40,271 nt of DNA, taken from IMG/VR virus record IMGVR_UViG_3300032116_000506, positions 1 through 40,271 of that record. One strand, written 5' to 3'. Source of the DNA: a virus. A model generated the notes under the pieces. The model was not told the DNA's origin and did not search any database. It saw only the letters and a list, made by a program, of their open reading frames with translations. Below, in pieces: positions 1-40,271 of this stretch. Numbering within the stretch: position 1 is the stretch's first letter; every line of letters starts with the position of its first letter. The translations under genes and the position numbers were made by a program.

Positions 1-98
1 CGCGAATAGGTTTCATACTTCACGCTGTCGCTTGAACTGTCCTTGCTTCCGGCACTGCCTTCGACTTGGTGGCCACTGGCCCCGTTCATTTCTTCCAT
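1..98 (-). CDS. Capsid scaffolding protein, N-terminal fragment cut by window start
   Basis: The ATG is at 98-96 and the frame runs off the left edge after about 32 codons. The fragment matches the first residues of the complete gene at 33442-34026, so it is the copy-1 allele of the scaffold. The AGGAGG ribosome site about a dozen bases upstream is present in both copies. The fragment is cut by the window, not broken by mutation. Confidence 0.85.
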   Translation of the reverse strand, partial: MEEMNGASGHQVEGSAGSKDSSSDSVKYETYS

Positions 99-132
99 TC
101 TTGATTATCCTCCTATGGTTTTCAAGTATTAG

Positions 133-783
133 TCAGAGATTACGACGAATGTATCGAATGACAACCTTTTTCATCTGTGTGAGTAGCTTATCTTTTAGGC
201 GCTCAGAGAATCCAAAGAACGGCCTTCCGGCCTCGGTAACATACTGCGCTAGCTTTAGGTTGCTGATCTCTTTGCCGACTTTATAGAATCCAGAGCGCCC
301 GGTGTTTACGTAGCTCATCCCACCGAATGACTTCTCGAATCCCTTTACTGTTCTGCCTAGGTTAACTTTTCTTTTTTTCTTCTTTCTTACGAATGATTCC
401 ATGTACTTCTTCCGGTATGGCTGATGAGTGCCATCCATAAAGAGCCTGATGAAAATGCTTCTTGTGGTAACGGAATAGGTGAACTTTATCGCGTCGAGGA
501 GTTGCCCGGTTAGAGTAAGGTTGGATCTGGTTTTAGAATAGGCTGGATGGGTTGGGCTGGCTTCTGCGATCTTCTCTCTCTCATTCTTCCAGCTTTTAGA
601 TAATGGCTTAAAACGCTCCCCCGTCTCTGGCGAGATCCCCTTCCTGGCTGTGAATTTCAGAGTATCGACGGCGATCTTCCCGAGCTCGTTAATCAGTTGA
701 GGGTTTTGAATTACCCTATTGATCCGATCCTTTGTTTCCTTCTCCAGTCGGTCCAGGCTGGCCTTATTGAATACGAGCTTCAT
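133..783 (-). CDS. gp10-like virion morphogenesis protein (copy 1)
   Basis: This 216-residue basic protein has the block order of the phage virion-morphogenesis or tail-completion families (Mu gpG-like, HK97 gp10-like): a K-P-L-S-K-S-W segment, an LTLTGQLLDAI segment near residue 95, and a C-terminal RPFFGFS segment followed by an amphipathic helix. Such proteins act at head or neck assembly or the head-tail junction. It overlaps the next upstream gene by four bases (ATGA). It is 17 residues longer than the 199-residue allele at 34061-34660 because of a Lys/Arg-rich insert near residues 135-155. The family call is by pattern; the exact assembly step is inferred. Confidence 0.6.
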   Translation of the reverse strand: MKLVFNKASLDRLEKETKDRINRVIQNPQLINELGKIAVDTLKFTARKGISPETGERFKPLSKSWKNEREKIAEASPTHPAYSKTRSNLTLTGQLLDAIKFTYSVTTRSIFIRLFMDGTHQPYRKKYMESFVRKKKKRKVNLGRTVKGFEKSFGGMSYVNTGRSGFYKVGKEISNLKLAQYVTEAGRPFFGFSERLKDKLLTQMKKVVIRYIRRNL

Positions 784-1382
784 TCCAGACCGCCCACCAG
801 GCCGAACAGATCCTCAAGCGTCCTAAGCCCGCGTACGAACTCCACGGCCTTCTCCTGGCTCTCGAGTGAGCTGATCGTCCTGGATCCTGCGCTAGCGTCG
901 ATCTCGGCCTTGAACTTCGGGAGCACCTCGCGCTTTACCTCGTCGCTGGTAACACCGAAGAAGGGGCGCTTATACTTCCCGTTAGGGATCGTAGGATGGC
1001 CCTCGAATCCGGTCTGATGTCCGTAAGCCTTCGGTGCGTCCACCTCGTCGTCGATGCCTATAACGACCAAGGCTCCGTCTTCCTCGAGGATGTCGATCGA
1101 GCGAAGCATATCCCCGGTGAGTGTCATGTTCACTTGGTTCCGGCTCTTGCCTGCGGCCTTAAATGATAGGCTGTTAGCGTAGGCTTTCGAATATGGACTC
1201 TTCAGATCCTTGCGCCCCAGGCCTCGCCCCTCCTTGGCCCGGTCGACCATGTAGTCGATCACACCCTGGGCGATCTTACGGACCAGGACAGGATCGGATG
1301 AAATGTCCCGGCCAGTCAGCTCGTTTAGGTCGAGCTTCTGAGAAACCCGGCTTTTAGTGAGCTTGATCCCTGGCTCGGCCAT
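780..1382 (-). CDS. Second gp10-like morphogenesis protein (copy 1)
   Basis: This 200-residue protein has the same landmarks as its downstream neighbour: a SPYSKAY segment, MTLTGDMLRSI and KRPFFGVT, in the same order and spacing. The two genes look like an old tandem duplication. A GHQTGFEGHP segment before the RPFFG block is typical of tail-completion or virion-morphogenesis families. The start ATG shares one base with the portal stop (TGATG), indicating translational coupling. The allele at 34657-35259 is the same length with only a few substitutions. It probably acts in head completion or the neck; the precise role is unknown. Confidence 0.6.
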   Translation of the reverse strand: MAEPGIKLTKSRVSQKLDLNELTGRDISSDPVLVRKIAQGVIDYMVDRAKEGRGLGRKDLKSPYSKAYANSLSFKAAGKSRNQVNMTLTGDMLRSIDILEEDGALVVIGIDDEVDAPKAYGHQTGFEGHPTIPNGKYKRPFFGVTSDEVKREVLPKFKAEIDASAGSRTISSLESQEKAVEFVRGLRTLEDLFGLVGGLE

Positions 1383-2914
1383 CAGTCCTCAGCTCCGACG
1401 TCGCCTTCCTCTTCTGGCATATCGTCTTCCATGTCCTGGACCTCAGCCACGGGTGTGGTCTGAGTTGGCATGATTCTTTCCATTTCACGACCAGACTCTT
1501 CCTGGATTCGCTGATAGACTTCCTGCGCATCCTCGAGCTCGATCTCGCGGTCCAGGGCGATGGCTTCGACCTGAGTGATCAGGCCCATCTCCTTCCGTTG
1601 CTGGATGTTCTGGAGTTTCTCGGCTTCGGATACCACGCTTGAAGGCTTCTTGAAGGTGATGCTCATGAAGGCGTCTTCAGAGATCGGAGCTACCCGGTAG
1701 CCCGGAAGAACGCTAGTCCCTCCGTAGGTGTTGAGATACGCCACGATGATTTTGAACAGCTTCTGCTCGGCATCTTTGAAGGCGGCGATGTCGGACTCGC
1801 TGGCCTCGAACTGCTCGACCATGGCCAGCAGGCGCTCGAATCCCGAGCTGTACTTCACCGAGTCCATCTTCGCATTGACCACCTTCGGATCCACGCCCCG
1901 GCTTGTCAGGAAGCTAGACAGGAGGCCCTCAAGGTAGGACAGCGATCCTTGCAGATCAGGGTTCGCGTTAGCATAGCCGAAGTCGGTCTCGACCGGGTTG
2001 TTAGGATCAATAGGCAAGCGAAGGACGAAGTTAGTCCCGATCTGGACATTATTCGGGATCAGGTTAGACGGAGCTTTCAGCCATGCCTGGCCGAAGCCCT
2101 GCATGCGGACCACGTTCCCGAGGTCGGTCAGGCCTGCGTTGAATTGAATGGTGAAGTCGGTAAGGGCAGCGCCGGAGCGGACCCAATACTCGCCGTCCTT
2201 GCCACCGTTGATGTCCACGAATGGCACGACCCCACCGATCGGGTTCTCGTAGCTGTCGGCCTTCATGATGTTTCCATTTTCATCCATGACGAAATTGAAC
2301 ACAGGCGACCATACCGCGATCGCCTTCATGCCCGCCTGATAATCGTCTTCGTCCGCGATCAGCTCGTTCATGCTGTCGCCGTCTTCTGTCACCTTAACGT
2401 TAGCTAGGTTCCGGTCGAATCCGTTGATGCAGTAAACCTCGCCATCCTCCTGGTCCTGGGACGATGGCACCACGTCGATGTTATGGGCAAGCAAGGCCTG
2501 GAGCTTCAGCTTCCCGGCGCGAGGGATGAGATACAGGTGCGTCTGGTCTTGAAGCTTGAAGTACTCGTTAGCCTTCATCATGACCGTGTCGATCTTTAGG
2601 TCCGCGTACACCTGACGGACCACCATCTCCTGCTCTTCGCTGAGGCCGTAGAACTCACGGACTGGAGCCTTCCTGTAAAGGCTGGCTTCCTTCTTCACGA
2701 TCCGGCGAGCCAGGTTGACCGAGCTTACGATCGGCGTGTTTTGGATGGTGTCTTTCGAGTAGAATCCCTCGAGGTAGGCCTTCACCTGCTGGAGGATCCG
2801 GTCCTTGAAGATCTCGAACTGCCCAAAGGATACCTTCTTGCGCTCGACGTTCTCGCTTGCCTTGGATTCGTCGATGATCTGTCTACGGACGTTAGGGTTC
2901 AAAAGGTTCAGCAT
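1382..2914 (-). CDS. Portal protein (copy 1)
   Basis: This 510-residue protein lies directly after TerL, the classic portal position, and has normal portal length. The N-terminal third is helical (RRIVKKEASLYRKAP is typical of portal proteins), the middle has the wing/stem pattern with an NPIGGVVPFVDING stretch, and the C-terminal end is strongly acidic. Twelve copies would form the ring through which DNA enters and leaves the capsid and to which TerL docks. The start is set by AAGGAGAT seven bases upstream, lying inside the end of TerL. The allele at 35259-36770 is 503 residues; most difference is in the acidic tail. Confidence 0.88.
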   Translation of the reverse strand: MLNLLNPNVRRQIIDESKASENVERKKVSFGQFEIFKDRILQQVKAYLEGFYSKDTIQNTPIVSSVNLARRIVKKEASLYRKAPVREFYGLSEEQEMVVRQVYADLKIDTVMMKANEYFKLQDQTHLYLIPRAGKLKLQALLAHNIDVVPSSQDQEDGEVYCINGFDRNLANVKVTEDGDSMNELIADEDDYQAGMKAIAVWSPVFNFVMDENGNIMKADSYENPIGGVVPFVDINGGKDGEYWVRSGAALTDFTIQFNAGLTDLGNVVRMQGFGQAWLKAPSNLIPNNVQIGTNFVLRLPIDPNNPVETDFGYANANPDLQGSLSYLEGLLSSFLTSRGVDPKVVNAKMDSVKYSSGFERLLAMVEQFEASESDIAAFKDAEQKLFKIIVAYLNTYGGTSVLPGYRVAPISEDAFMSITFKKPSSVVSEAEKLQNIQQRKEMGLITQVEAIALDREIELEDAQEVYQRIQEESGREMERIMPTQTTPVAEVQDMEDDMPEEEGDVGAED

Positions 2915-2915
2915 T

Positions 2916-4280
2916 TTATCTCCTTGAGCTTCCGACCATTACGGTCCCGAGCAAGTTGTGCTCGTAAACCACAGCGTAGCCGATCGCGGTGGTAATGTGC
3001 TGGTAAGGCTTTGAGTCGTCTTCGATGTAATCGCCGGACTTCTTCAGAGCTGTCAGCCTTAGCCCATCGTGCGTTACGGGAGCCGTTTTGTAAACGAACA
3101 AGCGCCGTTCGCCTGCCTCGTTCTGGCAATAGGCGTTCGCGATATTGTGGCGCTTCCTTACCGGAGGATTCTCACGAGGGACCTGCATCTCGAAGGTAGC
3201 GCCTGAGTTGGCCAGCGTTTTCCTGATGATGTCATAATCCGACACGATGGAGCGCGTGTCACGGGCCTGCCCGGAAGCGTCACCCCTCACCAGTATCTTC
3301 GCCCGGTGCGTCAGGATGCCCTTATCGATCCATGCGTCGATAGCGTCCTGAGTCCGAGCTCCTTGGATGACCACCTCGTCGAACCAGTGCCAGGCCTTTC
3401 CGTCCCACTGGCCAGCCGCCGATGACATGGGCTTCCCGTGGCCGATGTTGAAGTCGAACGCGAGCACGATCGGGAGATGGGGCCTTACCTGGTAGGCGGT
3501 GTTCAGGTAGTTCTTATCGGCGTCATAGGCCGAGTAGATCCGATCCTGGTCGATCTCGACCCACTCGCCATAGATGTACCTCTGGGCCTCTCGAGGAGCC
3601 AAGTCCTGCTTCAGTTGCTCGATGTAAACCGGATCTAGGAACGGGTTATCGGTCGTTACCGACTTGAACACCTTTCGAGTCCTGGCCTCGCTGTCGAAAA
3701 AGTATTTATAGACCCAGTGGCCTGGCCCGTCCGGATTCGTGGCAGCTATCAGGATGTTCTCCTTCACCTCTGGGATCCGACGAAGACGGGCCTTCAGCGT
3801 ATCGAAGGCGGCCTTGTCATCCTCGTTATTCTCGGTGAGCTCCTCGAACACAACCATGGACAGCTTGAGAGACCGGGCCTTCTTGTATTTCTTATCCGAC
3901 CAGCTTCTCGAGATGATCTCGGATCCGTTCCACCAGGTAACCTTAGCGATCGAGTGGTTTACTCTGTAGTGCTTTCCCTCGACGAAGTCTTCCGTGATGT
4001 GCTCCAGGATCTCCTTGAAGATCGTATCCTTCAGATCAGGCAGGGCCTTACGCGCTAGGCAGACTCTCGCTCCAGGATTCTCGACGCAATGACGGACGGC
4101 CAGATGAGCCATAAGGATAGACTTTGCGGATCCATAACTGCCAGACAAGAGAATCTCAGGCGTACCTGTTCCGAAATCCCAGTCATCAAGAAAATCGACG
4201 ACATCAGACTGATAAGGAATAACTCGCGGGTTAAAGTCGCTGAAGTAGGGCTTGGAGTATTGTTCGACTGCTTCACTCAT
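2916..4280 (-). CDS. terL: Terminase large subunit (copy 1)
   Basis: This 454-residue packaging motor combines an ATPase and an RNase H-fold nuclease. The P-loop is at residues 47-54 (GSYGSAKS, with Ala before Lys, tolerated in terminases), Walker B with the catalytic acid at 142-147 (MVVFEE), and a coupling motif near 178-183 (IAATNP). The nuclease domain starts with AFDFNIG (Asp276), continues with VRGDASG, and ends with the helical segment QHITTAIGYAVV. The start overlaps the TerS stop (ATGA). Only seven residues differ from the second copy at 36772-38136, despite many silent changes, so the gene is under strong purifying selection in both. Confidence 0.95.
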   Translation of the reverse strand: MSEAVEQYSKPYFSDFNPRVIPYQSDVVDFLDDWDFGTGTPEILLSGSYGSAKSILMAHLAVRHCVENPGARVCLARKALPDLKDTIFKEILEHITEDFVEGKHYRVNHSIAKVTWWNGSEIISRSWSDKKYKKARSLKLSMVVFEELTENNEDDKAAFDTLKARLRRIPEVKENILIAATNPDGPGHWVYKYFFDSEARTRKVFKSVTTDNPFLDPVYIEQLKQDLAPREAQRYIYGEWVEIDQDRIYSAYDADKNYLNTAYQVRPHLPIVLAFDFNIGHGKPMSSAAGQWDGKAWHWFDEVVIQGARTQDAIDAWIDKGILTHRAKILVRGDASGQARDTRSIVSDYDIIRKTLANSGATFEMQVPRENPPVRKRHNIANAYCQNEAGERRLFVYKTAPVTHDGLRLTALKKSGDYIEDDSKPYQHITTAIGYAVVYEHNLLGTVMVGSSRR

Positions 4281-4618
4281 TCCTTCTTCTTGCGCTCGTA
4301 GTTCATGTTTATTTTGATCGCGCCCTCGTTCTCGACAGCCACTTCTTGCTTATCTGCCCAACCGCATAGGTTCTTTAGGCAAAAAATCAGCATGGTGTTA
4401 TCCCCACCCATGGCCTTCTCGATCGCCTTTCTGATCAGCGCGTGTCTAGTGTGGACCATCTTTTGTTGCCGAAACTCGACAAAGCTCACGCCGTACTCGT
4501 CGCGGATAAAGCGCTCGATGGTACGATCCGAGCAGTCGAAGAACGCAGCCGTATCGAGGAGCGTCGGCTTCTGTCGCATGAAGGCTTCTAGCTTCTTCTT
4601 GTCGATTTCAACCGCCAT
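4277..4618 (-). CDS. terS: Terminase small subunit, type A
   Basis: This 113-residue protein sits immediately before TerL and overlaps it by four bases. Residues 10-55 form a helix-turn-helix of small-terminase type (DTAAFFDCSDRTIERFIRD), expected to recognise the packaging site. A central helical segment would form the ring, and the C-terminal tail EGAIKINMNYERKKKE would contact TerL. ATG at 4618 is preferred over the in-frame GTG at 4621 because it shares one base with the preceding stop (TGATG) and has GAGGTG just upstream. The copy-2 TerS (38133-38453) keeps this tail but has an unrelated N-terminal domain. Confidence 0.8.
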   Translation of the reverse strand: MAVEIDKKKLEAFMRQKPTLLDTAAFFDCSDRTIERFIRDEYGVSFVEFRQQKMVHTRHALIRKAIEKAMGGDNTMLIFCLKNLCGWADKQEVAVENEGAIKINMNYERKKKE

Positions 4619-5835
4619 CACGCACCTCTGATCTCATCCCAGGCGACTCCGTCTTCCCGGTGTGCCTTCTTGCCTGTAAACTTCTGCCATCGGTCGAGGA
4701 TTACTCCGCAGTAATGCGGATCAAGCTCCATCATAAAGCAGTTTCGTCCAGTCTTTTCGCAGGCGATTAGTGTTGATCCAGACCCACCAAAAACGTCTAC
4801 AATATTTGAACCTTTTGCGCGTTCAAAAAACCACTCAACAAGCGCAACCGGCTTTTGTGTTGGATGGACAGACCTGTCTTCGCCTCTTGCCGAAAAAGCT
4901 CCGGTTTGCCTAAGCACTCTCGCAAGTTCTCGTTTGCGTTTCTTTTTAGACCAGCAAGTTTCAAAGTCTGAACCAAATGCACCGTCTAATGTTCCCACTT
5001 CAATTTCTGATCGTGATCTCTTATCCCAAACAATCCAAGAGCCATTATTTTTTTCGTGAATCAACTCGGCGTAATAATCTGCGCCGAATAAAAAAATCTC
5101 TTCACAATCTTGAAAAATTCCCAATAGAGTTTGTATTAGTTCAGCCTTAAAATCATCTCCATCGCCAATGACTCGTTTGTGCTTTAATCCAGATTTCCCC
5201 ATTTTTGAGTAGTCTGTATCTAAATTCATGCCATACGGAGGATCTGTAAAAACCATATCGGCCTTCTCGCCGTTCATTAGCCGTTCGATATCGGTGATCG
5301 CAGTTGAGTCTCCGCACATGAGGCGATGATTCCCAAGGATGTAAACCTCGCCTTGAACCACCTTCGGATCTGGCCTGGCGTCTGGCACTTCGTCCTCGTC
5401 GCACTCTGGCTCGAGCTTCTCCGACAGATCAAGCGTAAAGTCCTTGAGTCCCAGCATCTCGAGATCAAAGTCTGGTCCAAGGTCTGGCAAGTCCGCATTG
5501 ATTCCAGCCAGGTCGAGCTCGGCCCAGGATGCGATCGCGTTGTCGGCCTGGATGAACGCATACTCGGCGGTCTCGTCCGCGAACTTCTGGTAGACCACAG
5601 GCATTGAATCGAAGCCCGCCTTCTTCCCTGCTAGCTTCCGTCCGTGGCCTGCCACGATACAGCCTGAGAGCTCGGAGATGATGATGGGATGCCTGATCCC
5701 GTGGTACTCGTAGAGCTTCGCCAGGCGCTCGATCTGCTCGTCTGAGTGCTTGTTCCTGTTCTTCGGGTGATCCTTCAGCTCATGGATGGGAATCATCCGG
5801 TCATAGCGACAATGGATCTCTGGAATGTTGGTCAT
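4618..5835 (-). CDS. ParB-like domain fused to a DNA methyltransferase
   Basis: This 405-residue two-domain protein starts at 5835, where GGAGG lies eight bases upstream; the in-frame ATG at 5850 precedes that site and is rejected. Residues 10-100 are a ParB/Srx-like domain with HPKNRNKH and the VAGHGRKLAG box. Residues 155-405 are a beta-class methyltransferase with DPPY at 198-201 (N6-adenine or N4-cytosine chemistry), HPTQKPVAL at about 324-332 and the AdoMet motif FGGSGST at 349-355. All key motifs look intact. Base composition across about 4680-5260 is visibly AT-richer than the flanks, suggesting later arrival. The second copy (38440-38976) lacks the methyltransferase domain. Confidence 0.9.
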   Translation of the reverse strand: MTNIPEIHCRYDRMIPIHELKDHPKNRNKHSDEQIERLAKLYEYHGIRHPIIISELSGCIVAGHGRKLAGKKAGFDSMPVVYQKFADETAEYAFIQADNAIASWAELDLAGINADLPDLGPDFDLEMLGLKDFTLDLSEKLEPECDEDEVPDARPDPKVVQGEVYILGNHRLMCGDSTAITDIERLMNGEKADMVFTDPPYGMNLDTDYSKMGKSGLKHKRVIGDGDDFKAELIQTLLGIFQDCEEIFLFGADYYAELIHEKNNGSWIVWDKRSRSEIEVGTLDGAFGSDFETCWSKKKRKRELARVLRQTGAFSARGEDRSVHPTQKPVALVEWFFERAKGSNIVDVFGGSGSTLIACEKTGRNCFMMELDPHYCGVILDRWQKFTGKKAHREDGVAWDEIRGA

Positions 5836-6001
5836 GCTCTGTTCCTCCACTGGACGGTCCAGCTAGCCCCACTGGGGCCTCTCTCTCCAGTGTTAGACCA
5901 TCCTCGTCAGGAATCAAAGCCGAACGCATTACTGCACCGAGTCGAGAGAGTAGGCTTTTTTTTCCTAGTGATCCCCTTACCCTAAGAGCGGGGGAACACG
6001 C
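5836..6001. promoter_or_regulatory. Divergent control region, copy 1
   Basis: These 166 bases separate the start of the minus-strand late unit from the plus-strand island, so both promoters should lie here, though I see no convincing -10/-35 pair. Three structures recur in copy 2: a perfect 6-bp inverted repeat with one-base loop (5850-5862), a GCCCC/GGGGC hairpin (5866-5878), and a stem flanking eight T residues (5951-5967) that shows a compensatory base change between copies. The first inverted repeat ends five bases before the ribosome site of the ParB gene. A one-base indel between copies breaks any shared reading frame, so the stretch is probably noncoding. Confidence 0.55.
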
Positions 6002-6946
6002 ATGGACCAGAAGCACTACGTGGTCGTAAAGCTGAAGGAGCTCGCGCATGAGTTGGGGCGCGTCCCGATGATCTCGGATTTCCAGGCCATCTTTCCGCGC
6101 ATCCCGGTCGGGATCCTGTTCGGGACCTGGGATAACGCTCTCAGGGCGGCTGGCCTGGTAGAGAAGGAAGAGCCGAAGAAGAAGGATCCATTCCCGGCCA
6201 TTGATGATCCTGAGAAGATCAAAGAGATCGTTTACTCTCAGGAACACAGAAACGTCGTCAGGCTTAACCACGCCGAGAAGATCATGGTCGTGGGCGACAT
6301 GCACCTGCCTTTCGTAAATCTGAACGCGCTCTCGATGGTCTACGCCTTCGCTCAGAAGGAACAGCCGGACGTGATCGTCCAGGTTGGTGATCTTACCGAC
6401 CAGTATTCGGCCTCGAAGTTTGCCAGGTCGCTGAACACCTACACGCCGAAGGCTGAGGATGATCTGTCCAGGGAGATGGCAGAGGACTTTTGGAAGACGC
6501 TCCAGCAGGTAGCACCGAAGGCGAAATGCTTCCAGCTCATGGGCAACCATGACGCGAGAATACTCAAGCGCATCGTCGAGAAGTGCCCAGAGGGAGAACA
6601 CCTGATCGCCCAGGCCATCCGATCCAGAATGACTTTCGAAGGAGTGACGACAATCCATGACCCGACCGAGGAACTCTACATCAACGGGATCTTGTTCATC
6701 CACGGCCACTATTCGAAGCTGGGCGCGCACCGTGATTTTAACAACTGCAACGTCGTGTGCGGTCACTCTCACCGTGGCGGGGTTAATTATCGGAGCTATA
6801 ATGGCGAGACCTTCTGGGAGCTTAACGCCGGATTCATCGGCGACCCCTATTCGAAAGCCCTCTCCTACCGTCCGCAACGGATCCATAACTGGACGACAGG
6901 GATCGGTCTCATCGACGAATACGGCCCGCGCTTTATCAGCTTCTGA
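6002..6946 (+). CDS. Calcineurin-like phosphoesterase with HNH-associated repeat (copy 1)
   Basis: This 314-residue protein has two parts. Residues 5-52 match the HNH/homing-endonuclease-associated repeat (LKELAHELGRVPMISDF then FGTWDNALRAAGL), a likely DNA-binding helical unit. Residues 92-280 form a metallophosphatase with all motifs in order: GDMH (Asp99, His101), GDLTD (Asp130), GNHD (181-184), HGH (234-236) and GHSH (254-257). It should be a two-metal phosphoesterase acting on a nucleic acid or nucleotide substrate. GGGGGAA lies eight bases before the ATG. First gene of the only plus-strand operon. The allele at 39142-40092 is 316 residues. Confidence 0.88.
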   Translation: MDQKHYVVVKLKELAHELGRVPMISDFQAIFPRIPVGILFGTWDNALRAAGLVEKEEPKKKDPFPAIDDPEKIKEIVYSQEHRNVVRLNHAEKIMVVGDMHLPFVNLNALSMVYAFAQKEQPDVIVQVGDLTDQYSASKFARSLNTYTPKAEDDLSREMAEDFWKTLQQVAPKAKCFQLMGNHDARILKRIVEKCPEGEHLIAQAIRSRMTFEGVTTIHDPTEELYINGILFIHGHYSKLGAHRDFNNCNVVCGHSHRGGVNYRSYNGETFWELNAGFIGDPYSKALSYRPQRIHNWTTGIGLIDEYGPRFISF

Positions 6947-6956
6947 GGAGGTCTCT

Positions 6957-7274
6957 ATGATCGTGAAGGTAGTGAATAAGAAATGGAAGATCACCGTCCG
7001 CACCGATAAGATCCACAACGCTCGATTTGGTGAGACGCACGGGATCGCCATGCTGGACGATAGGAAGATCCACATCAGGCGCTCGAGCATGAACTCGGAG
7101 ACGATCCTCCACGAGCTGATCCATGCCTATCAGCACGAGCTCTCGTTTCATGAGCTCCAGCTAGACGACGACCAGGTCGAAGAGTGGTTCGCCGAGCTGT
7201 TCGGGAAATACGGTCGCACGATGATCAAGGACGCCGATCGGCTTTTAACTTACTACCGGGAGCGGAAGAAGTGA
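6957..7274 (+). CDS. Small SprT-like zinc metallopeptidase (copy 1)
   Basis: This 105-residue protein contains HELIHAYQHE, an HExxH zinc-protease motif, at about residues 52-61, followed by an acidic helix (EEWFAELFG) that could supply the third ligand. It resembles minimal SprT-like or gluzincin domains seen in phages; the substrate is unknown. The start at 6957 is supported by GAGGAGG eight bases upstream, overlapping the phosphoesterase stop region. Its stop overlaps the GTG of the next gene. The second copy (40103 onward) begins M-T-V instead of M-I-V and is cut by the window end. Confidence 0.75.
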   Translation: MIVKVVNKKWKITVRTDKIHNARFGETHGIAMLDDRKIHIRRSSMNSETILHELIHAYQHELSFHELQLDDDQVEEWFAELFGKYGRTMIKDADRLLTYYRERKK

Positions 7275-7555
7275 GGCCATGGGCCCAGGCGCTCGTCCTG
7301 CTCGTGGCAGTATGCTTTAGCCTAGACCAGGTCCGGGACGCTGAGTGTAAGACCTATTGCCGGACCGCAGCCGGGTACGATTCCGGGATGTGGATTGTGA
7401 AGCAGAAACGGTGCTGGTGTGGCGACCTCATGGATCAAGAGAGGCTATCGGATAAGAAAATCATGGCGCCGAAGAAGGTTAACAAAGTCAGGAAAGCGAG
7501 CTTTATGGTCCCGATGAGTGTACCGAGCGAAGACTTCAGGCTTCCGTGGGAGTGA
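7271..7555 (+). CDS. Small exported or membrane-anchored Cys-rich protein
   Basis: The likely start is the GTG at 7271, which overlaps the preceding stop (GTGA), giving 94 residues. The N-terminus (RPWAQALVLLVAVCFSLDQV) is a signal peptide or membrane anchor; a C-K-T-Y-C pair and a C-W-C pair follow, then a Lys-rich tail. No family recognised. Its position after the phosphoesterase and peptidase in one coupled operon suggests an envelope-directed role expressed with them. It ends at 7555, directly abutting the end of the convergent zinc-ribbon gene, with no spacer for a terminator. Confidence 0.6.
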   Translation: MRPWAQALVLLVAVCFSLDQVRDAECKTYCRTAAGYDSGMWIVKQKRCWCGDLMDQERLSDKKIMAPKKVNKVRKASFMVPMSVPSEDFRLPWE

Positions 7556-7693
7556 TTAGTTAAGGCTTTTCTTCCGTTCATCTGAGACCACCATCAGGAT
7601 CGAGCGACAGTCCGCGCATACCCAGGTGTAAATCTTTCGGATCACCTGGTCGCCAGTCTTCGTCATGCCACACTCTTCGCAATAGAACACCAC
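7556..7693 (-). CDS. 45-residue zinc-ribbon protein
   Basis: A GTG at 7693 (another at 7690) opens a 45-codon frame with two knuckles, FYCEECGM and WVCADCRS, spaced 18 residues apart, as in small zinc ribbons of phage replication or transcription regions. A near-perfect ribosome site (GGGGGTGAT) precedes it by five bases. It is the last gene of the minus-strand early unit, just downstream of a likely terminator (7731-7786), so it may depend on readthrough or its own promoter. A longer frame over the same bases (7578-7793) lacks these features. Confidence 0.72.
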   Translation of the reverse strand: MVFYCEECGMTKTGDQVIRKIYTWVCADCRSILMVVSDERKKSLN

Positions 7694-7730
7694 GCTCGAT
7701 CACCCCCATCCTTCTGACAGCATAGCCCGA

Positions 7731-7786
7731 AGAAAAGAAAAGGCCAGAACCATTGAAAGGAACACGCATGGTGTTGGTCCTGGCCT
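7731..7786 (-). terminator. Stem-loop with U-rich tail after the Lys-rich gene
   Basis: The arms are 7741-7752 and 7774-7786: seven pairs (AGGCCAG/CTGGCCT), one bulged base, then five more (AACCA/TTGGT), around a 21-base loop. Read on the minus strand the stem is followed by TTTCTTTTCTTC, as in rho-independent terminators. It would end or reduce transcription of the early unit before the zinc-ribbon gene. Confidence 0.6.
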
Positions 7787-7813
7787 CGCTCATCGGATGG
7801 GAGCCGACGAAAC

Positions 7814-8041
7814 TTACTTCTTCTTTTTGCTTACAGTCTTCTTGGCCTTCTTGGCTTTAATGGTTTTGGTTACTGCTTTCTTAGCTACTTTTTTGTTTGC
7901 TGGCATTTTCTTTCTCTTTCGTTTGTTGGTTTTAGTTCTCCTTGCAGCGCCCACGGTCTGGGGGGAGTCCGTGAGCGTTGCGAGGAACCTAGACAGTAGG
8001 CTGTCGAGGAAGCCGATAATCTTTTCAACGATGGCGATCAT
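7814..8041 (-). CDS. Small Lys-rich protein with amphipathic N-terminal helix
   Basis: The 75-residue protein starts at 8041 behind AGGAG eight bases upstream. Residues 1-24 form an amphipathic/hydrophobic helix (MIAIVEKIIGFLDSLLSRFL). Residues 34-75 are extremely basic, with KKA/AKK repeats resembling the tails of histone H1-like bacterial proteins. An internal ATG at 7906 could give a 30-residue peptide that is nearly all tail. It may bind DNA or act at the membrane; neither is established. It overlaps the end of the membrane-peptide gene by 17 bases in another frame. Confidence 0.6.
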   Translation of the reverse strand: MIAIVEKIIGFLDSLLSRFLATLTDSPQTVGAARRTKTNKRKRKKMPANKKVAKKAVTKTIKAKKAKKTVSKKKK

Positions 8042-8186
8042 GGCGGTGGCTCCTGTCGGATGCGATTAAGAACAGGCCGATCAGTGTAACCAGGCCGAAG
8101 ACGAGCATGAAAAACACGAAGATCATAAAGCCCACAGCGACCAGCGGATCGTTAGAATCAAGGGCCTGAAGTATTGCCTGAGTCAT
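8025..8186 (-). CDS. 53-residue single-span membrane protein
   Basis: This short frame starts at ATG 8186 with GGAA about ten bases upstream and fills the gap between the VRR-NUC gene and the Lys-rich gene. Residues 15-42 are a clear membrane helix (AVGFMIFVFFMLVFGLVT and on), followed by a basic, His/Arg-rich tail. It overlaps the previous gene by 29 bases and the next by 17. A holin-like or superinfection-related role is possible but unsupported. Confidence 0.65.
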   Translation of the reverse strand: MTQAILQALDSNDPLVAVGFMIFVFFMLVFGLVTLIGLFLIASDRSHRHDRHR

Positions 8187-8514
8187 GTTTAGCGAGTTCC
8201 TTTTCTACGTCGTATATCGACCGAGCCACGAATGCAAGACCCCCTCGATCATTTATTTTCTGAATAAAGAACTGCTGCTCCGGGCTCACTCGCCCCTTAT
8301 CAGTCTTCACTTCGATAGCCAGGATCCGTCCACCGGGAAGGATGCCGAGAATGTCCGACACGCCCTTGATGTGGAATGGATTATTATTCTTCCGATAGAT
8401 CCGCTTTACTGGATCGTAAATGCCGACCGATTGATTCTTCCAGGCGAAGATACCGCGCTTGAAAAGGTAGGTCAGGATCTGGTTCTCGATAAGCTTTTCC
8501 GGCTGTGATGACAT
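8158..8514 (-). CDS. VRR-NUC-type nuclease
   Basis: This 118-residue protein starts at the first in-frame ATG (8514). It carries the PD-(D/E)xK core in VRR-NUC arrangement: Glu10, GVSD (Asp54), AIEVK (Glu68, Lys70) and a following Q-Q near 80-81. Stand-alone phage VRR-NUC proteins are structure-selective nucleases thought to cut Holliday junctions or branched replication intermediates, fitting its place after Erf. The ribosome site is weak, and a strong hairpin (8531-8556) lies just upstream, so translation or mRNA stability may be controlled there. Confidence 0.82.
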   Translation of the reverse strand: MSSQPEKLIENQILTYLFKRGIFAWKNQSVGIYDPVKRIYRKNNNPFHIKGVSDILGILPGGRILAIEVKTDKGRVSPEQQFFIQKINDRGGLAFVARSIYDVEKELAKHDSGNTSGP

Positions 8515-8530
8515 GGCCTGAAGTAAATCA

Positions 8531-8556: not shown

Positions 8557-8602
8557 CGACCAGCGCCGCGAGAGTAGCAGGCTATTCCCTGGCCTGCTGG
8601 CG

Positions 8603-9064: not shown

Positions 9065-9075
9065 GGTCGCCTCCT

Positions 9076-9941: not shown

Positions 9942-9953
9942 ATAGGATCGGGC

Positions 9954-12249: not shown

Positions 12250-12489
12250 TCAGTTTAGTTTAGCGTCCAGTTCTGCCACCTTGATGCCGAGATACAGATC
12301 TCGGTAATGGCAATAGTTTCTCCATGCTCGTTCCCTGGCCTCAAGGAACGCCTTCGAGTTCCACCCTTTGGAATACTCCATCGAGTAGTAAATGTGCCAG
12401 GCCTGCGCTACCAGTGGATCGCGAAGCATGGCTTTCACCTGTTCAATCTTTTCGTGGTCGATCTTGTTGTTCATGCCCGGACAATACAT
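12250..12489 (-). CDS. Small helical protein, unknown function
   Basis: The start at 12489 shares one base with the preceding stop (TGATG), giving 79 residues; an ATG at about 12474 (MNNKIDHEK) is an alternative. It is rich in aromatic and charged residues (QAWHIYYSMEYSKGW), predicted all-helical. No family recognised. Translationally coupled to the zinc protein before it. Confidence 0.55.
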   Translation of the reverse strand: MYCPGMNNKIDHEKIEQVKAMLRDPLVAQAWHIYYSMEYSKGWNSKAFLEARERAWRNYCHYRDLYLGIKVAELDAKLN

Positions 12490-12818
12490 CAGAAATCCCA
12501 TTCAAGCTTATTATTAGAACTGATAGCCTTGGCCTTCGCGCACTTTCCGCAGTAATAAACCCACGCGCCAGATTGAGCCTTGAATGGAATCATGCTCCGT
12601 TGTTCCTTCATGCGCTTCTTGTATTCCATCGACTGCTCAAGCTTTCGCTTCATGGCGACCATGGACTCGCTTAGGTCTTGATCGGCCACGAGCTCGCGCC
12701 TGTGCTGGTATCCGCAGGCGTTACAGATCAGGCCCGAAAAACTTATTTCCTCTTCCTGGAGCTTTGCGAGTCGGTTGAATCCCACCGTTATCTTGTGAAG
12801 TTCTGTCTTCCAGTTCAT
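12489..12818 (-). CDS. Zinc-finger protein of the replication region
   Basis: ATG at 12818 with AAGGAG seven bases upstream gives 109 residues. Two knuckles, CNACGYQH near residue 33 and YYCGKC near 90, are separated by a charged helical insert (KRKLEQSMEYKKRMKEQR), suggesting one zinc ribbon formed by distant halves. Its first 98 bases overlap the end of the DnaB-like gene in another frame. A replication- or recombination-associated DNA-binding role is inferred from position. Confidence 0.65.
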   Translation of the reverse strand: MNWKTELHKITVGFNRLAKLQEEEISFSGLICNACGYQHRRELVADQDLSESMVAMKRKLEQSMEYKKRMKEQRSMIPFKAQSGAWVYYCGKCAKAKAISSNNKLEWDF

Positions 12819-33441: not shown

Positions 33442-34026
33442 TTATGGTTTCAGGGTTTTCAGTTTCTCAATCAATTCGTCCTTCGTGAGTTCCTTTACAG
33501 GCTTCTCCCCGGAGAACGTCCCAGCCGATAAGTGAACATCACCCGGCTTCTGTGCTCCAGTCGCGAAGAAGTAAGGCTTTGACTTGGCAAGGTTCGCGAT
33601 CTGAGTCTTTAGCTGTTCAGTGTTAAGATTGAAACTTTCGTCGATCTCAACGCTGGACCAGTCGCCTACCTTTACGATGTCATCCAAGGCTTCCTTGCGC
33701 GCTCCCATGGTGAGGGCTAATTGCTTAACCTCCTTCTGGAAGATGGTCTTAGCATAGGCTGCATCCTTGGCCTTGAGTGCGTCTTCGATCTCCCGCTTGG
33801 ATTTCAAAACACCCTCCAGGGCTTCCTTATACTTGCCCTGTTCCGCTAGTACCGTCTGCTCGCGCTCGTGTTCCTTTGCCTGAAACTCATTCAGCTTTGC
33901 TTTCAGGGCTTTGATTTCCCCGATCGCGCGCGAATAGGTTTCATACTTCACGCTGTCGCTTGAACTGTCCTTGCTTCCGGCACTGCCTTCGACTTGGTGG
34001 CCACTGGCCCCGTTCATTTCTTCCAT
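33442..34026 (-). CDS. Capsid scaffolding protein
   Basis: The 194-residue protein has a low-complexity Ser/Gly start, a long charged coiled coil (about 35-100, IKALKAKLNEFQAKEHEREQ and on), a helical centre and a short C-terminal helix ELTKDELIEKLKTLKP of the kind that binds coat subunits. It directly precedes the coat gene, as in GP20-like scaffolds. Complete allele of the fragment at 1-98; its first 98 bases begin the repeated part of the window. Confidence 0.8.
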   Translation of the reverse strand: MEEMNGASGHQVEGSAGSKDSSSDSVKYETYSRAIGEIKALKAKLNEFQAKEHEREQTVLAEQGKYKEALEGVLKSKREIEDALKAKDAAYAKTIFQKEVKQLALTMGARKEALDDIVKVGDWSSVEIDESFNLNTEQLKTQIANLAKSKPYFFATGAQKPGDVHLSAGTFSGEKPVKELTKDELIEKLKTLKP

Positions 34027-34060
34027 TCTTGATTATCCTCCTATGGTTTTCAAGTGTTGG

Positions 34061-34660
34061 TTAGAGATTACGACGGATATAGCGAATGACAACCTTTTTC
34101 ATCTGTGTAAGTAGCTTATCTTTTAGGCGCTCAGAGAAGCCGAAGAACGGCCTTCCGGCTTCGCTAACGTACTGCGCTAGCTTTAGGTTGCTGATCTCTT
34201 TTCCGACCTTATAGAATCCAGACCGGCCAGTATTCACGGTTGTCTTTCCGCGCTTTGTTTTTCTTGTGAATGATTCCATGTACTTCTTCCGGTATGGCTG
34301 ATGAGTGCCATCCATGAAGAGCCTGATGAAAATGCTTTTTGTGGTTACGGAATACGTGAACTTGATCGCGTCGAGGAGTTGCCCGGTTAGGGTAAGGTTG
34401 GATCTGGTCTTAGAATAGGCTGGATGGGTTGGGCTAGCTTCTGCGATCTTCTCTCTCTCATTCTTCCAGCTTTTAGATAATGGCTTAAAACGCTCCCCTG
34501 TCTCTGGCGAGATCCCTTTCCTGGCTGTGAATTTCAGAGTGTCGACTGCGATCTTTCCGAGCTCGTTAATCAGTTGAGGGTTTTGAATGACCCTATTGAT
34601 CCGATCCTTCGTGTCCTTCTCGAGTCGGTCTAGGCTGGCCTTATTGAAGACGAGCTTCAT
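34061..34660 (-). CDS. gp10-like virion morphogenesis protein (copy 2)
   Basis: The 199-residue allele of the gene at 133-783. It shares the LTLTGQLLDAI and RPFFGFS blocks but has a shorter basic loop (TRKTKRGKTTVNTGRS) where copy 1 carries 17 extra residues. That places the variable part in one surface loop. Overlaps the upstream gene by four bases as in copy 1. Confidence 0.6.
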   Translation of the reverse strand: MKLVFNKASLDRLEKDTKDRINRVIQNPQLINELGKIAVDTLKFTARKGISPETGERFKPLSKSWKNEREKIAEASPTHPAYSKTRSNLTLTGQLLDAIKFTYSVTTKSIFIRLFMDGTHQPYRKKYMESFTRKTKRGKTTVNTGRSGFYKVGKEISNLKLAQYVSEAGRPFFGFSERLKDKLLTQMKKVVIRYIRRNL

Positions 34661-35259
34661 TCTAGACCGCCCACCAGGCCGAACAGGTCTTCAAGCGTCC
34701 TAAGGCCACGCACGAACTCCACGGCTTTCTCCTGGCTCTCGAGCGAGCTGATCGTCCTGGCCCCTGCGCTCGCGTCGATCTCGGCCTTGAACTTCGGAAG
34801 CACCTCGCGCTTTACCTCGTCGCTGGTAACGCCGAAGAAGGGGCGCTTATACTTTCCGCTCGGGATCGTCGGATGGCCCTCGAATCCGGTCTGGTGTCCG
34901 TAGGCTTTCGGTGCGTCTGTCTCGTCGTCGATGCCGATCACGACCGATGCACCGTCCTCCTCGAGGATGTCGATCGATCGGAGCATATCCCCGGTCAGCG
35001 TCATGTTCACCTGGTTCCGGCTCTTGCCTGCGGCCTTGAAGGAAAGGCTGTTCGCATAGGCTTTGGAATAAGGGCTTTTAAGGTCCTTGCGGCCCAGGCC
35101 TCGCCCTTCCTTGGCCCGGTCGACCATGTAGTCGATCACGCCCTGGGCGATCTTACGGACCAGAACCGGATCAGATGAGATGTCCCGGCCAGTCAGCTCG
35201 TTTAAGTCGAGCTTCTGAGACACTCGGCTTTTCGTGAGCTTGATCCCCGGCTCGGCCAT
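34657..35259 (-). CDS. Second gp10-like morphogenesis protein (copy 2)
   Basis: The 200-residue allele of 780-1382, with five or so substitutions (for example A-L-V-V to A-S-V-V and S-R-T-I to A-R-T-I). Keeps the MTLTGDMLRSI and KRPFFGVT blocks and the one-base overlap with the portal stop. Confidence 0.6.
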   Translation of the reverse strand: MAEPGIKLTKSRVSQKLDLNELTGRDISSDPVLVRKIAQGVIDYMVDRAKEGRGLGRKDLKSPYSKAYANSLSFKAAGKSRNQVNMTLTGDMLRSIDILEEDGASVVIGIDDETDAPKAYGHQTGFEGHPTIPSGKYKRPFFGVTSDEVKREVLPKFKAEIDASAGARTISSLESQEKAVEFVRGLRTLEDLFGLVGGLE

Positions 35260-36770
35260 CAGTCTTCAGCCTCGAGCTCGTCTTCCTCGTCTTCCACTTC
35301 AGCCGCTGGTGGGGCCTTAGCTGGCACGATTCTTTCGATCTCCCGACCAGACTCTTCCTGGATCCGCTGGTAAATCTCCTCGGCGTCATCCATTTCGATC
35401 TCGCGATCTAAGGCGATAGCTTCCACCTGAGTGATAAGGCCCATCTCCTTCCGTTGCTGGATGTTCTGGAGCTTCTCGGCTTCAGAGACCACGCTAGAAG
35501 GCTTCTTGTAGGTGATGCTCATGAAGGCATCCTCGGAGATCGGAGCGACCCGGTAGCCAGGGAGAACGCTCGTCCCGCCGTAGGTGTTCAGGTAGGCCAC
35601 GATGATCTTAAAGAGCTTCTGCTCGGCGTCCTTGAAAGCGGCGATGTCGGACTCGCTGGCCTCGAACTGCTCGACCATGGCGAGGAGACGCTCGAATCCA
35701 GAACTATACTTGACCGAGTCCATCTTAGCATTGACCACCTTCGGATCCACGCCACGGCTGGTCAGGAAGCTAGACAGGAGGCCCTCGAGGTAGGAGAGAG
35801 AGCCTTGCAGATCCGGGTTCGCGTTAGCATAGCCGAAGTCGGTCTCGACCGGGTTGTTAGGATCAATGGGCAAACGAAGCACAAAGTTGGTCCCGATCTG
35901 AATGTTGTTCGGGATCAGGTTAGAGGGAGCCTTGAGCCATGCCTGGCCGAAGCCCTGCATCCGCACCACGTTCCCAAGGTCGGTCAGGCCTGCGTTGAAT
36001 TGAATGGTGAAGTCGGTAAGAGCGGCGCCAGAGCGGACCCAATATTCGCCGTCTTTCCCGCCGTTGATGTCTACGAATGGAACGACCCCACCGATCGGGT
36101 TCTCGTAGCTCTCGGATGGCATGATGTTCCCCTGCTCATCCATGACGAAATTGAACACAGGCGACCATACCGCGATCGCCTTCATGCCTGCCTGATAATC
36201 GTCTTCGTCAGCGATGAGCTCATTCATGCTGTCGCCGTCTTCGCTCACCTTGACGTTAGCCAGGTTGCGATCGAAGCCGTTGATGCAGTAAACCTCGCCT
36301 TCCTCCTGGTCCTGAGAGGATGGGACCACGTCGATGTTATGAGCGAGCAAGGCCTGGAGCTTCAGCTTCCCAGCGCGAGGGATCAGGTAGAGGTGAGTCT
36401 GGTCTTGGAGCTTGAAGTATTCGTTGGCTTTCATCATGACCGTGTCGATCTTCAGATCCGCGTACACCTGACGGACGACCATCTCCTGCTCTTCGCTGAG
36501 CCCGTAGAACTCACGCACTGGGGCCTTACGGTAAAGGCTGGCTTCCTTCTTCACGATCCGGCGAGCCAGGTTTACCGAGCTCACGATCGGCGTGTTCTGG
36601 ATCGTGTCCTTCGAGTAGAACCCCTCGAGGTAGGCCTTAACCTGTTGAAGGATCCGATCCTTGAAAATCTCGAACTGGCCGAAGCTCACCTTCTTGCGCT
36701 CGACGTTCTCACTTGCCTTGGATTCGTCGATGATCTGCCTGCGGACATTTGGGTTCAAAAGGTTCAGCAT
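35259..36770 (-). CDS. Portal protein (copy 2)
   Basis: The 503-residue allele of 1382-2914. Nearly all replacements are conservative; the acidic C-terminal tail is the exception, being rewritten and seven residues shorter. AAGGAGAT lies seven bases upstream of the ATG, inside the TerL end, as in copy 1. Confidence 0.88.
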   Translation of the reverse strand: MLNLLNPNVRRQIIDESKASENVERKKVSFGQFEIFKDRILQQVKAYLEGFYSKDTIQNTPIVSSVNLARRIVKKEASLYRKAPVREFYGLSEEQEMVVRQVYADLKIDTVMMKANEYFKLQDQTHLYLIPRAGKLKLQALLAHNIDVVPSSQDQEEGEVYCINGFDRNLANVKVSEDGDSMNELIADEDDYQAGMKAIAVWSPVFNFVMDEQGNIMPSESYENPIGGVVPFVDINGGKDGEYWVRSGAALTDFTIQFNAGLTDLGNVVRMQGFGQAWLKAPSNLIPNNIQIGTNFVLRLPIDPNNPVETDFGYANANPDLQGSLSYLEGLLSSFLTSRGVDPKVVNAKMDSVKYSSGFERLLAMVEQFEASESDIAAFKDAEQKLFKIIVAYLNTYGGTSVLPGYRVAPISEDAFMSITYKKPSSVVSEAEKLQNIQQRKEMGLITQVEAIALDREIEMDDAEEIYQRIQEESGREIERIVPAKAPPAAEVEDEEDELEAED

Positions 36771-36771
36771 T

Positions 36772-38136
36772 TTATCTCCTTGAGCTTCCGACCATTACGG
36801 TCCCGAGCAAGTTGTGCTCGTACACTACCGCATAGCCGATGGCGGTCGTGATGTGCTGATAAGGCTTTGAGTCGTCTTCGATGTAATCGCCGGACTTCTT
36901 CAGAGCTGTCAGCCTTAGCCCATCGTGCGTCACGGGAGCCGTTTTGTAAACGAACAAGCGCCGTTCGCCTGCCTCGTTCTGGCAATAGGCGTTCACGGTG
37001 TTATGCCTTTTCCTTACCGGAGGATTCTCCCGAGGGACCTGCATCTCGAAGGTAGCTCCTGAGTTGGCCAGCGTTTTCCTGATGATGTCATAATCTGAGA
37101 CGATCGACCGCGTGTCTCTGGCCTGCCCGGAGGCGTCACCCCTGACGATGATCTTCGCCCGGTGCGTCAGGATGCCCTTCTCGATCCATGCGTCGATAGC
37201 GTCCTGAGTCCGAGCTCCCTGGATCACCACCTCGTCGAACCAGTGCCAGGCCCTCCCGTCCCACTGGCCAGCCGCCGATGACATGGGCTTACCGTGGCCG
37301 ATGTTAAAGTCGAACGCGAGCACGATCGGAAGGTGGGGCCTCACCTGGTAGGCGGTGTTTAGGTGGTTCTTATCGGCGTCATAGGCCGAATAGATCCGGT
37401 CCTGGTCGATCTCGACCCACTCGCCGTAGATGTATCTCTGTGCCTCTCGAGGGGCTAGGTCCTGCTTCAGTTGCTCGATGTACACCGGATCTAGGAATGG
37501 GTTGTCAGTCGTGACAGACTTGAACACCTTGCGCGTCCTGGCTTCGCTGTCGAAGAAATATTTGTAAACCCAGTGGCCCGGCCCGTCCGGGTTTGTGGCG
37601 GCGATCAGGATGTTCTCCTTCACTTCCGGGATCCGGCGAAGACGGGCCTTCAGCGTATCAAATGCGGCCTTATCGTCTTCGTTATTCTCGGTGAGCTCTT
37701 CGAAGACCACCATGGACAGCTTGAGCGACCGCGCCTTCTTGTATTTCTTATCTGACCAGCTTCTCGAGATAATCTCGGATCCGTTCCACCAGGTAACTTT
37801 AGCGATCGAGTGGTTCACTCTGTAGTGCTTACCCTCGACGAAGTCTTCCGTGATGTGCTCTAGGATCTCCTTGAAGATCGTGTCCTTCAGATCCGGCAAC
37901 GCCTTACGAGCTAGACAGACTCGCGCTCCAGGATTCTCGACGCAATGACGGACGGCCAGATGAGCCATAAGGATAGACTTTGCGGATCCATAACTGCCAG
38001 AAAGGAGAATCTCTGGCGTACCTCGTCCGAAATCCCAGTCATCAAGAAAATCGACGACATCAGACTGATAAGGAATAACTCGCGGATTAAAGTCGCTGAA
38101 GTAGGGCTTTGAGTATTGTTCAACTGCTTCACTCAT
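36772..38136 (-). CDS. terL: Terminase large subunit (copy 2)
   Basis: The 454-residue allele differs from copy 1 at seven residues: Thr38Arg just ahead of the P-loop, Tyr258His, and five others in the nuclease half. All ATPase and nuclease motifs are intact. It is paired here with a TerS whose DNA-binding domain is unrelated to that of copy 1, so one TerL type serves two recognition modules. Confidence 0.95.
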   Translation of the reverse strand: MSEAVEQYSKPYFSDFNPRVIPYQSDVVDFLDDWDFGRGTPEILLSGSYGSAKSILMAHLAVRHCVENPGARVCLARKALPDLKDTIFKEILEHITEDFVEGKHYRVNHSIAKVTWWNGSEIISRSWSDKKYKKARSLKLSMVVFEELTENNEDDKAAFDTLKARLRRIPEVKENILIAATNPDGPGHWVYKYFFDSEARTRKVFKSVTTDNPFLDPVYIEQLKQDLAPREAQRYIYGEWVEIDQDRIYSAYDADKNHLNTAYQVRPHLPIVLAFDFNIGHGKPMSSAAGQWDGRAWHWFDEVVIQGARTQDAIDAWIEKGILTHRAKIIVRGDASGQARDTRSIVSDYDIIRKTLANSGATFEMQVPRENPPVRKRHNTVNAYCQNEAGERRLFVYKTAPVTHDGLRLTALKKSGDYIEDDSKPYQHITTAIGYAVVYEHNLLGTVMVGSSRR

Positions 38137-38453
38137 TCCTTTTTCTTGCGCTCGTAATTCATGTTGATCTTGATCGCGCCCTCGCTTGCGATGTCGATCG
38201 TGTCCTTCTGTCCGAGGAGTTGCTTCCCGAGCCAGATCAACATCGAGGCGTTACCCTTTCGAGCGGCGTCCAGTTGCCAGCGCCGAAGGGACATTTTTAG
38301 AGATGCTCGGCCTTTTGCTAATTGTTCCGCGAAACGTCGGTCGAGCGTATCGGTTGAGCATCCGACGAAGTCAGCGATCTCGGTCGTCTTGCATCCGATG
38401 GAGGCCAGCTTCTCTACCAGGTTACCGTCGATCTCAAGTTCAGGCCTGGCCAT
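38133..38453 (-). CDS. terS: Terminase small subunit, type B
   Basis: The 106-residue protein is encoded where TerS is expected and overlaps TerL by four bases. Residues 15-40 (KLASIGCKTTEIADFVGCST then DTLDRRF) form a small-terminase helix-turn-helix different from that of type A. The final 16 residues, EGAIKINMNYERKKKE, are identical to type A. GAGGG six bases before the ATG lies inside the ParB gene, and the two overlap by 14 bases. Confidence 0.8.
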   Translation of the reverse strand: MARPELEIDGNLVEKLASIGCKTTEIADFVGCSTDTLDRRFAEQLAKGRASLKMSLRRWQLDAARKGNASMLIWLGKQLLGQKDTIDIASEGAIKINMNYERKKKE

Positions 38454-38976
38454 TCGGTCCCTCGGTCACTTCGTTTAGTTTCGAATCAAACACCTCGTAG
38501 CACTTCGGGCATCTCACGAGAGACTGCTCCTCGTCCTTCTGGGCTTGCTTCTGGTCTACCTCTGACAGATCAAGCGTGAAGTCCTTGAGGCCTAGCATCT
38601 CGAGATCGAAGTCCGGCCCCAGGTCTGGCAGGTCCGCATTGATCCCAGCCAGGTCGAGCTCGGCCCAGGACGCTATCGCGTTGTCTGCCTGGATAAACGC
38701 ATACTCGGCGGTCTCGTCCGCGAACTTCTGGAACACCACAGGCATCGAGTCAAAGCCTGCCTTCTTCCCTGCCAGCTTCCGTCCGTGGCCCGCCACGATA
38801 CAGCCAGAGAGCTCGGAGACGATGATGGGATGTCTGATCCCATGGTATTCGTACAGCTTCGCCAGACGCTCGATCTGCTCGTCTGAGTGCTTGTTCCGGT
38901 TCTTCGGATGATCCTTCAGCTCATGGATGGGAATCATCCGGTCATAGCGACAATGGATCTCTGGAATGTTGGTCAT
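38440..38976 (-). CDS. ParB-like protein with C-terminal CPKC knuckle, no methyltransferase
   Basis: The 178-residue protein starts at 38976 with GGAGG eight bases upstream. Residues 1-139 match copy 1 almost exactly through FTLDLSE, including VAGHGRKLAG. It then departs into a 39-residue tail with Gln/Lys-rich helix and RCPKCYEVFD (Cys156, Cys159), half a zinc ribbon. This could be the ancestral or an alternative form of the copy-1 fusion. Longer readings upstream pass through the control region and are rejected. Confidence 0.8.
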   Translation of the reverse strand: MTNIPEIHCRYDRMIPIHELKDHPKNRNKHSDEQIERLAKLYEYHGIRHPIIVSELSGCIVAGHGRKLAGKKAGFDSMPVVFQKFADETAEYAFIQADNAIASWAELDLAGINADLPDLGPDFDLEMLGLKDFTLDLSEVDQKQAQKDEEQSLVRCPKCYEVFDSKLNEVTEGPNGQA

Positions 38977-39141
38977 GCTCTGTTCCTCCACTGGACGGTC
39001 CAGTCGGCCCCACCGGGGCTCTCTCTCCAGTGTTAGACCATCCACGTCAGGAATCAAAGCCGAACGCATTACCGCACCGAGTCGAGAGAGTGGGCTTTTT
39101 TTTCCCAGTGATCCCCTTACCCTAAGAGCGGGGGAACACGC
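38977..39141. promoter_or_regulatory. Divergent control region, copy 2
   Basis: This 165-base counterpart of 5836-6001 keeps the 13-base inverted repeat (38991-39003), the GCCCC/GGGGC hairpin (39007-39019, loop base changed) and the T8-loop stem (39091-39107). In the last, TAGG/CCTA of copy 1 is TGGG/CCCA here: both arms changed together, which argues for selection on the pairing. Confidence 0.55.
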
Positions 39142-40092
39142 ATGGACCAGAAGCACTACGTGGTCGTAAAGCTGAAGGAGCTCGCGCATGAACTGGGGCG
39201 CGTCCCGATGATCTCGGACTTTCAAGCGATCTTTCCGCGCATCCCGGTCGGGATCCTGTTCGGGACCTGGGATAACGCTCTTCGGGCGGCTGGCCTGGTC
39301 GAGAAGGAAAAGGAAGAGCCGAAGAAGAAGGACCCATTTCCGGCTATTGATGATCCTGAGAAGATCAAAGAGATCGTTTACTCTCAAGACCACAGGAACG
39401 TGGTCAGGCTAAACCACGCCGAGAAGATCATGGTCGTGGGCGATATGCACCTGCCCTTCGTGAACCTGAACGCGCTATCGATGGTCTACGCCTTCGCTCA
39501 GAAGGAACAGCCTGACGTGATCGTCCAGGTGGGCGATCTTACCGACCAGTATTCGGCCTCGAAATTCGCCCGGTCGCTGAACACCTATACGCCGAAGGCT
39601 GAGGACGACCTGTCCCGGGAGATGGCCGAGGACTTCTGGAAGACGCTCCAGCAGGTTGCGCCTAAGGCGAAATGCTTTCAGCTCATGGGCAACCATGACG
39701 CGAGAATACTCAAGCGCATCGTCGAGAAGTGCCCGGAGGGAGAGCACCTGATCGCCCAGGCTATCCGATCCCGAATGACATTTGAAGGAGTGACCACCAT
39801 CCATGACCCGACCGAGGAACTCTACATCAACGGAATCTTGTTCATCCACGGCCACTATTCGAAGCTGGGCGCACACCGTGATTTTAACCAGTGTAATGTC
39901 GTGTGCGGTCACTCTCACCGGGGCGGGGTTAACTATCGGAGCTATAATGGCGAGACCTTCTGGGAGCTCAATGCCGGATTCATCGGCGACCCCTATTCGA
40001 AAGCCCTCTCCTACCGTCCGCAACGGATCCACAACTGGACGACTGGGATCGGTCTTATCGACGAATACGGCCCGCGCTTTATCAGCTTCTGA
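39142..40092 (+). CDS. Calcineurin-like phosphoesterase with HNH-associated repeat (copy 2)
   Basis: The 316-residue allele of 6002-6946, with two extra residues (K-E) in the charged linker after residue 55 and a handful of conservative changes such as Asn248Gln-type. All metal-binding motifs (GDMH, GDLTD, GNHD, HGH, GHSH) are unchanged. Same GGGGGAA ribosome site. Confidence 0.88.
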   Translation: MDQKHYVVVKLKELAHELGRVPMISDFQAIFPRIPVGILFGTWDNALRAAGLVEKEKEEPKKKDPFPAIDDPEKIKEIVYSQDHRNVVRLNHAEKIMVVGDMHLPFVNLNALSMVYAFAQKEQPDVIVQVGDLTDQYSASKFARSLNTYTPKAEDDLSREMAEDFWKTLQQVAPKAKCFQLMGNHDARILKRIVEKCPEGEHLIAQAIRSRMTFEGVTTIHDPTEELYINGILFIHGHYSKLGAHRDFNQCNVVCGHSHRGGVNYRSYNGETFWELNAGFIGDPYSKALSYRPQRIHNWTTGIGLIDEYGPRFISF

Positions 40093-40102
40093 GGAGGTTT
40101 CT

Positions 40103-40271
40103 ATGACAGTCAAAGTGGTAAATAAGAAATGGAAGATCACCGTCCGCACCGATAAGATCCATAACGCTCGCTTCGGTGAGACGCACGGTATCGCCATGCT
40201 GGATGATCGGAAGATCCACATCAGGCGATCGAGCATGAACTCGGAGACGATCCTTCACGAGTTGGTCCACG
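40103..40271 (+). CDS. SprT-like metallopeptidase (copy 2), cut by window end
   Basis: The gene begins at ATG 40103 behind GAGGAGG and runs off the window within its HExxH motif (HELVH). The visible 56 residues match copy 1 (6957-7274) except at the second residue and Ile-to-Val in the motif. The truncation is by the window, not by mutation. Confidence 0.8.
   Translation, partial: MTVKVVNKKWKITVRTDKIHNARFGETHGIAMLDDRKIHIRRSSMNSETILHELVH

Follow-up and report, generated by a model that had tools for sequence, protein, structure and literature searches.

Self-overlap of the window

The window, that is, the whole stretch of 40,271 nucleotides from IMGVR_UViG_3300032116_000506 that was analysed, carries phage genes at both ends, among them those for the large (TerL) and small (TerS) terminase subunits, a ParB-domain protein and a phosphoesterase, each present in two versions (Table 1). 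The phosphoesterase (6002-6946, 39142-40092) has an N-terminal homing-endonuclease-associated repeat domain (Pfam HNH_repeat), and its gene lies on the plus strand, adjoining the minus-strand packaging genes.

A preliminary description had proposed that the window overlaps itself by 6-7 kb, with two different strain versions of the same genes, and self-BLAST bears this out, as positions 1-4328 match 33929-38184 with 89.8% identity and 5419-7123 match 38560-40269 with 92.9% identity. The two copies (A on the left, B on the right) have identical order and orientation, a spacing of 33,928 bp between their starts and 676 mismatches in 6337 aligned bases. The exact overlap of the window ends is 0. 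Divergence was said to lie mostly at silent sites, and this is the case: TerL has seven residue changes in 454, and 88 of its 101 nucleotide differences fall in third positions (dS 0.37, dN 0.0105), while the metallophosphoesterase differs at 2 of 314 residues and a 200-aa protein at four, most of the remaining overlap proteins being likewise conserved. The overlap contains the seven complete genes that had been reported as counted twice and also fragments of two more, namely the 5′ end of a scaffold-like gene (1-98) and an ORF (from ~6946) that contains a HELIH motif.

The copies had also been described as the same genes in the same order, differing additionally by indels. Order and homology stand, but inside the overlap ~4329-5418 and ~38185-38559 form a non-homologous stretch at the DNA level, where identity between the two TerS alleles (A and B) is only 36%, with the C-terminus EGAIKINMNYERKKKE in common, and the methyltransferase part is absent in B. 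A phage terminal redundancy, be it a direct terminal repeat or headful, is excluded, since the copies differ by 7-10%, include this non-homologous stretch and share no exact end overlap.

Table 1. Features of the window, with positions on the presented strand.
Feature	Position	Strand	Evidence or remark
Copy A of repeated region	1..7123		self-BLAST
Copy B of repeated region	33929..40269		self-BLAST
Fork vertex	1..127		identical to 33929-34055; strain A branch starts the contig; exact-run analysis and k=127 graph
TerL, copy A	2916..4280	-	Pfam Terminase_3, E 1.7e-23
TerS, allele A, 114 aa	4277..4621	-	phrog_309 terminase small subunit, E 1.4e-6
ParB-methyltransferase fusion, copy A only	4618..5835	-	Pfam ParB_N + N6_N4_Mtase; methyltransferase part ~4621-5355
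TerL, copy B	36772..38136	-	7/454 residues differ from copy A
TerS, allele B, 106 aa	38133..38453	-	TerS role from position and similarity to allele A
ParB-only protein, copy B	38440..38991	-	Pfam ParB_N only, without methyltransferase domain
Strain A segment	1..12487		100% identical to IMGVR_UViG_3300031951_000634
Strain B (other-strain) segment	12488..40271		83-93% identical to strain A where homologous
Loss of match to strain A	12488..12529		5 mismatches in 42 bases, then different replication module to ~14482
First shared exact stretch of at least 127 bp, strain A versus window past 12487	33512..33672		161 bp
Second shared exact stretch of at least 127 bp	33917..34055		139 bp; its last 127-mer also opens the contig

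Differences between strains in the packaging region

The two TerS alleles segregate among strains with TerL proteins 97-100% identical to that of copy A, with allele A in L003, L004, L006, L007, L008, L010, L013 and L021 and allele B in L005, L009 and L022. The adjoining ParB domain is either fused to varying methyltransferases or has a short C-terminus without one, and the ParB-fused methyltransferases of several close relatives are 41-54% identical to that of copy A. From these comparisons the TerS/ParB-methyltransferase region (4277-5835, 38133-38991) looks like a site of allele swapping between strains, TerL itself remaining ~98% identical. The overlap also retains genuine differences between strains in these genes.

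Relationship to strain A

The left part of the window (1-12487) is identical throughout to IMGVR_UViG_3300031951_000634 (L021, G013; 34,982 bp), here called strain A, and is divergent from it thereafter. The strain A record has one TerL and overlaps itself by 126 bp, the same 126 bases standing at its start and at its end. It continues upstream of the equivalent of window base 1, near 28025 of that record, and thus base 1 starts the contig, not the strain A genome. A further 12 bases upstream are common to strain A and the window, making up the full exact stretch of 139 bases at 33917-34055, and beyond them strain A carries a diverged sequence of its own, homologous to the window on the left side of 33929. 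What marks the start of the contig is a fork in the graph and not the end of a genome.

The identity with strain A extends to 12487, and neither 7125 nor 33929 is its limit; the left strain runs past the overlap, and the window is not simply one genome with a copy of its end. At this point identity stops abruptly at a replication module (12488-14482) with a DnaB-like helicase and an initiator-like protein. The module (12530-14482) is absent at that place in G013, G014 and G005 and is collinear in L054 at 75%; gene order here is therefore natural in at least one relative (L054), an assembly switch being still compatible with it. The change from strain A at ~12487 may reflect either a switch during assembly or genuine recombination.

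As a single-copy unit genome, strain A has been recovered (34,982 bp, one TerL); strain B was not found separately, and a search with an exact pattern of 48 bases from close to the right end brought up no second record of it. We infer that strain B is a separate genome.

The 127-base match at the start of the contig

Alignment of the copies shows that positions 1-127 equal 33929-34055 exactly and that base 128 differs, the longest other exact run between them being 95 bases (562 runs). The contig end starts with an exact repeat of the length of an assembler k; in a published JGI-processed dataset, metaSPAdes was run with -k 21,33,55,77,99,127, where 127 is the top k (PMC12697132). For the present record, we infer the assembler and k. 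A k-mer merge of the right end with copy A was rejected, because the alignment stops 2 bases short of 40271 and no long exact run extends beyond 40161.

De Bruijn graphs were built from the strain A circle and window positions 12488-40271 with k of 127, 99, 77 and 55. In the k=127 graph the two sequences share only two stretches, and out-forks likewise number only two; the vertex of the second is window 33929-34055, which is also window 1-127. The corresponding fork falls at window base 29 for k=99, 51 for k=77 and 73 for k=55; of the four values, only k=127 makes base 1 the site of the strain fork.

Strains of a phage encoding an Erf-like annealing protein and an exonuclease VIII-like protein could plausibly recombine, and the contig could on that account be a real recombinant concatemer or terminal-redundancy heterozygote from a mixed infection, whose packaged DNA included 6.3 kb of redundancy derived from the other strain. 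This is very unlikely, given that the boundary sits at the exact base predicted from k=127, that the redundancy, at 19% of the genome, would be a large one, that such an arrangement is seen in no relative and that an individual hybrid molecule cannot be picked out by short reads drawn from a population.

Related contigs and host context

Overlaps of k-mer size recur among the relatives. The contig of L005 begins with exactly 127 bases common to L003 from the same sample. G014 (L022; 33,725 bp) has a 182-bp self-overlap at 98.4% identity with an exact 127-base 3′ tip, and G015 (L025; 33,091 bp) has a 442-bp self-overlap at 95.2% with an exact 99-base 5′ tip. There are also exact self-closures of 127 bp (G025, G033), 99 bp (G019) and 55 bp (G039), while the end overlaps of G029 and G030 may be local repeats and were left out of the firm closures. 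The self-closing relatives are ~31-35 kb long, so that related contigs close at unit length with overlaps of k-mer size. The contig ends of G014 and G015 are smaller versions of the artefact seen in the window, which is the extreme of a series.

TerL and the major head protein are single in every relative where they were found, with one TerL or one head gene apiece in over 20 of them. These counts speak against a stable tandem duplication, diverged by 10%, within one phage genome of ~40 kb, as do the 100% identity of copy A to a strain that has no second copy and the different TerS alleles of the copies, which segregate between strains. With the contig itself in its favour and nothing beyond it, such a duplication is scarcely credible.

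Two diverged copies in direct orientation would also fit two related prophages in tandem in one bacterial chromosome. Tandem prophages would be expected to show flanking host DNA or attachment sites and an integrase. In the window, each contig end falls within a phage gene that has a homologue in the other copy, only one unit lies between the copies, and no integrase or host gene was present among the ORFs scanned with PHROGs, some of the small ORFs included. Across 85,462 genomes of bacteria and archaea, the only TerL relative found was a distant one (39%) on a Flavobacteriaceae MAG contig, which is too distant for host assignment. Strain A, moreover, is its own self-overlapping contig of 34,982 bp, and tandem prophages would leave the exact 127-base run at base 1 unexplained, making this origin extremely improbable.

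Origin of the contig

The contig is almost certainly (probability about 0.96) a product of de Bruijn-graph assembly, consisting of one turn of a map of ~34 kb that starts in strain A and ends in strain B. The 6-7 kb repeat is not a real feature of any phage. The preliminary description had suggested that the contig runs round a 33-34 kb genome and passes from one strain to another, and the idea gains support from the 127-base start, the fork at base 1 at k=127, the single-copy strain A record and the unit-length relatives with a single TerL.

Under this assembly origin, two or more strains of one phage, its map of ~34 kb being circular (or circularly permuted), would have occurred together and been assembled jointly. 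As the strains differ at 7-17% of bases, they would meet at k=127 only at rare exactly shared stretches. The contig would begin at the branching vertex that ends the stretch 33917-34055, on the outgoing branch of strain A, and its path round the map would re-enter that vertex after 33,928 bases and then follow the branch of strain B for 6.3 kb. Because the second pass leaves on the strain B branch, the same genes appear twice, in two strain versions, and a molecule carrying two copies would not be required.

Comparison with known assembly artefacts

In the CheckV study, terminal repeats (DTR) of metagenomic contigs were reported to pile up at k-mer lengths, e.g., 55, 77 and 99, where circular templates are cut, and some contigs were reported to hold concatenated genome copies (PMC8116208). 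The window resembles the k-mer terminal overlap of circular templates (PMC8116208, Extended Data figure on DTR lengths) in having an exact repeat of the assembler k at the cut point. However, in the window the k-mer joins the start to the interior, and the ends are unlike and form no end repeat, since the second pass exits on the branch of the other strain. With the concatenated-genome contigs (PMC8116208, Extended Data Fig. 9) it shares a genome that is read more than once, probably by the assembler, but the window holds 1.19 genome lengths and not two or more, and its copies are ~10% apart, leaving few repeated k-mers. Inter-strain chimeric contigs in de Bruijn assemblies (PMC11443906) are likewise strains joined via short conserved stretches longer than k, whereas here the join closes round a circular map and both strain versions are displayed.

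The window provides an explained case of an artefact that is missed by exact end-repeat checks, its end overlap being 0. K-mer copy counting would detect it weakly, because the copies share no exact stretch longer than 127 bases. Wrapped contigs of this kind make a genome look longer and richer in genes than it is and can be misread as duplications. A simple test, usable on whole collections, is whether the self-match from base 1 ends at exactly k.

The window also has a short internal repeat at 10849-10989 (78 bp, 90% alike), which lies within a 173-aa ORF on the minus strand (10757-11278) and encodes an alanine-rich stretch of the AAYAANA type.
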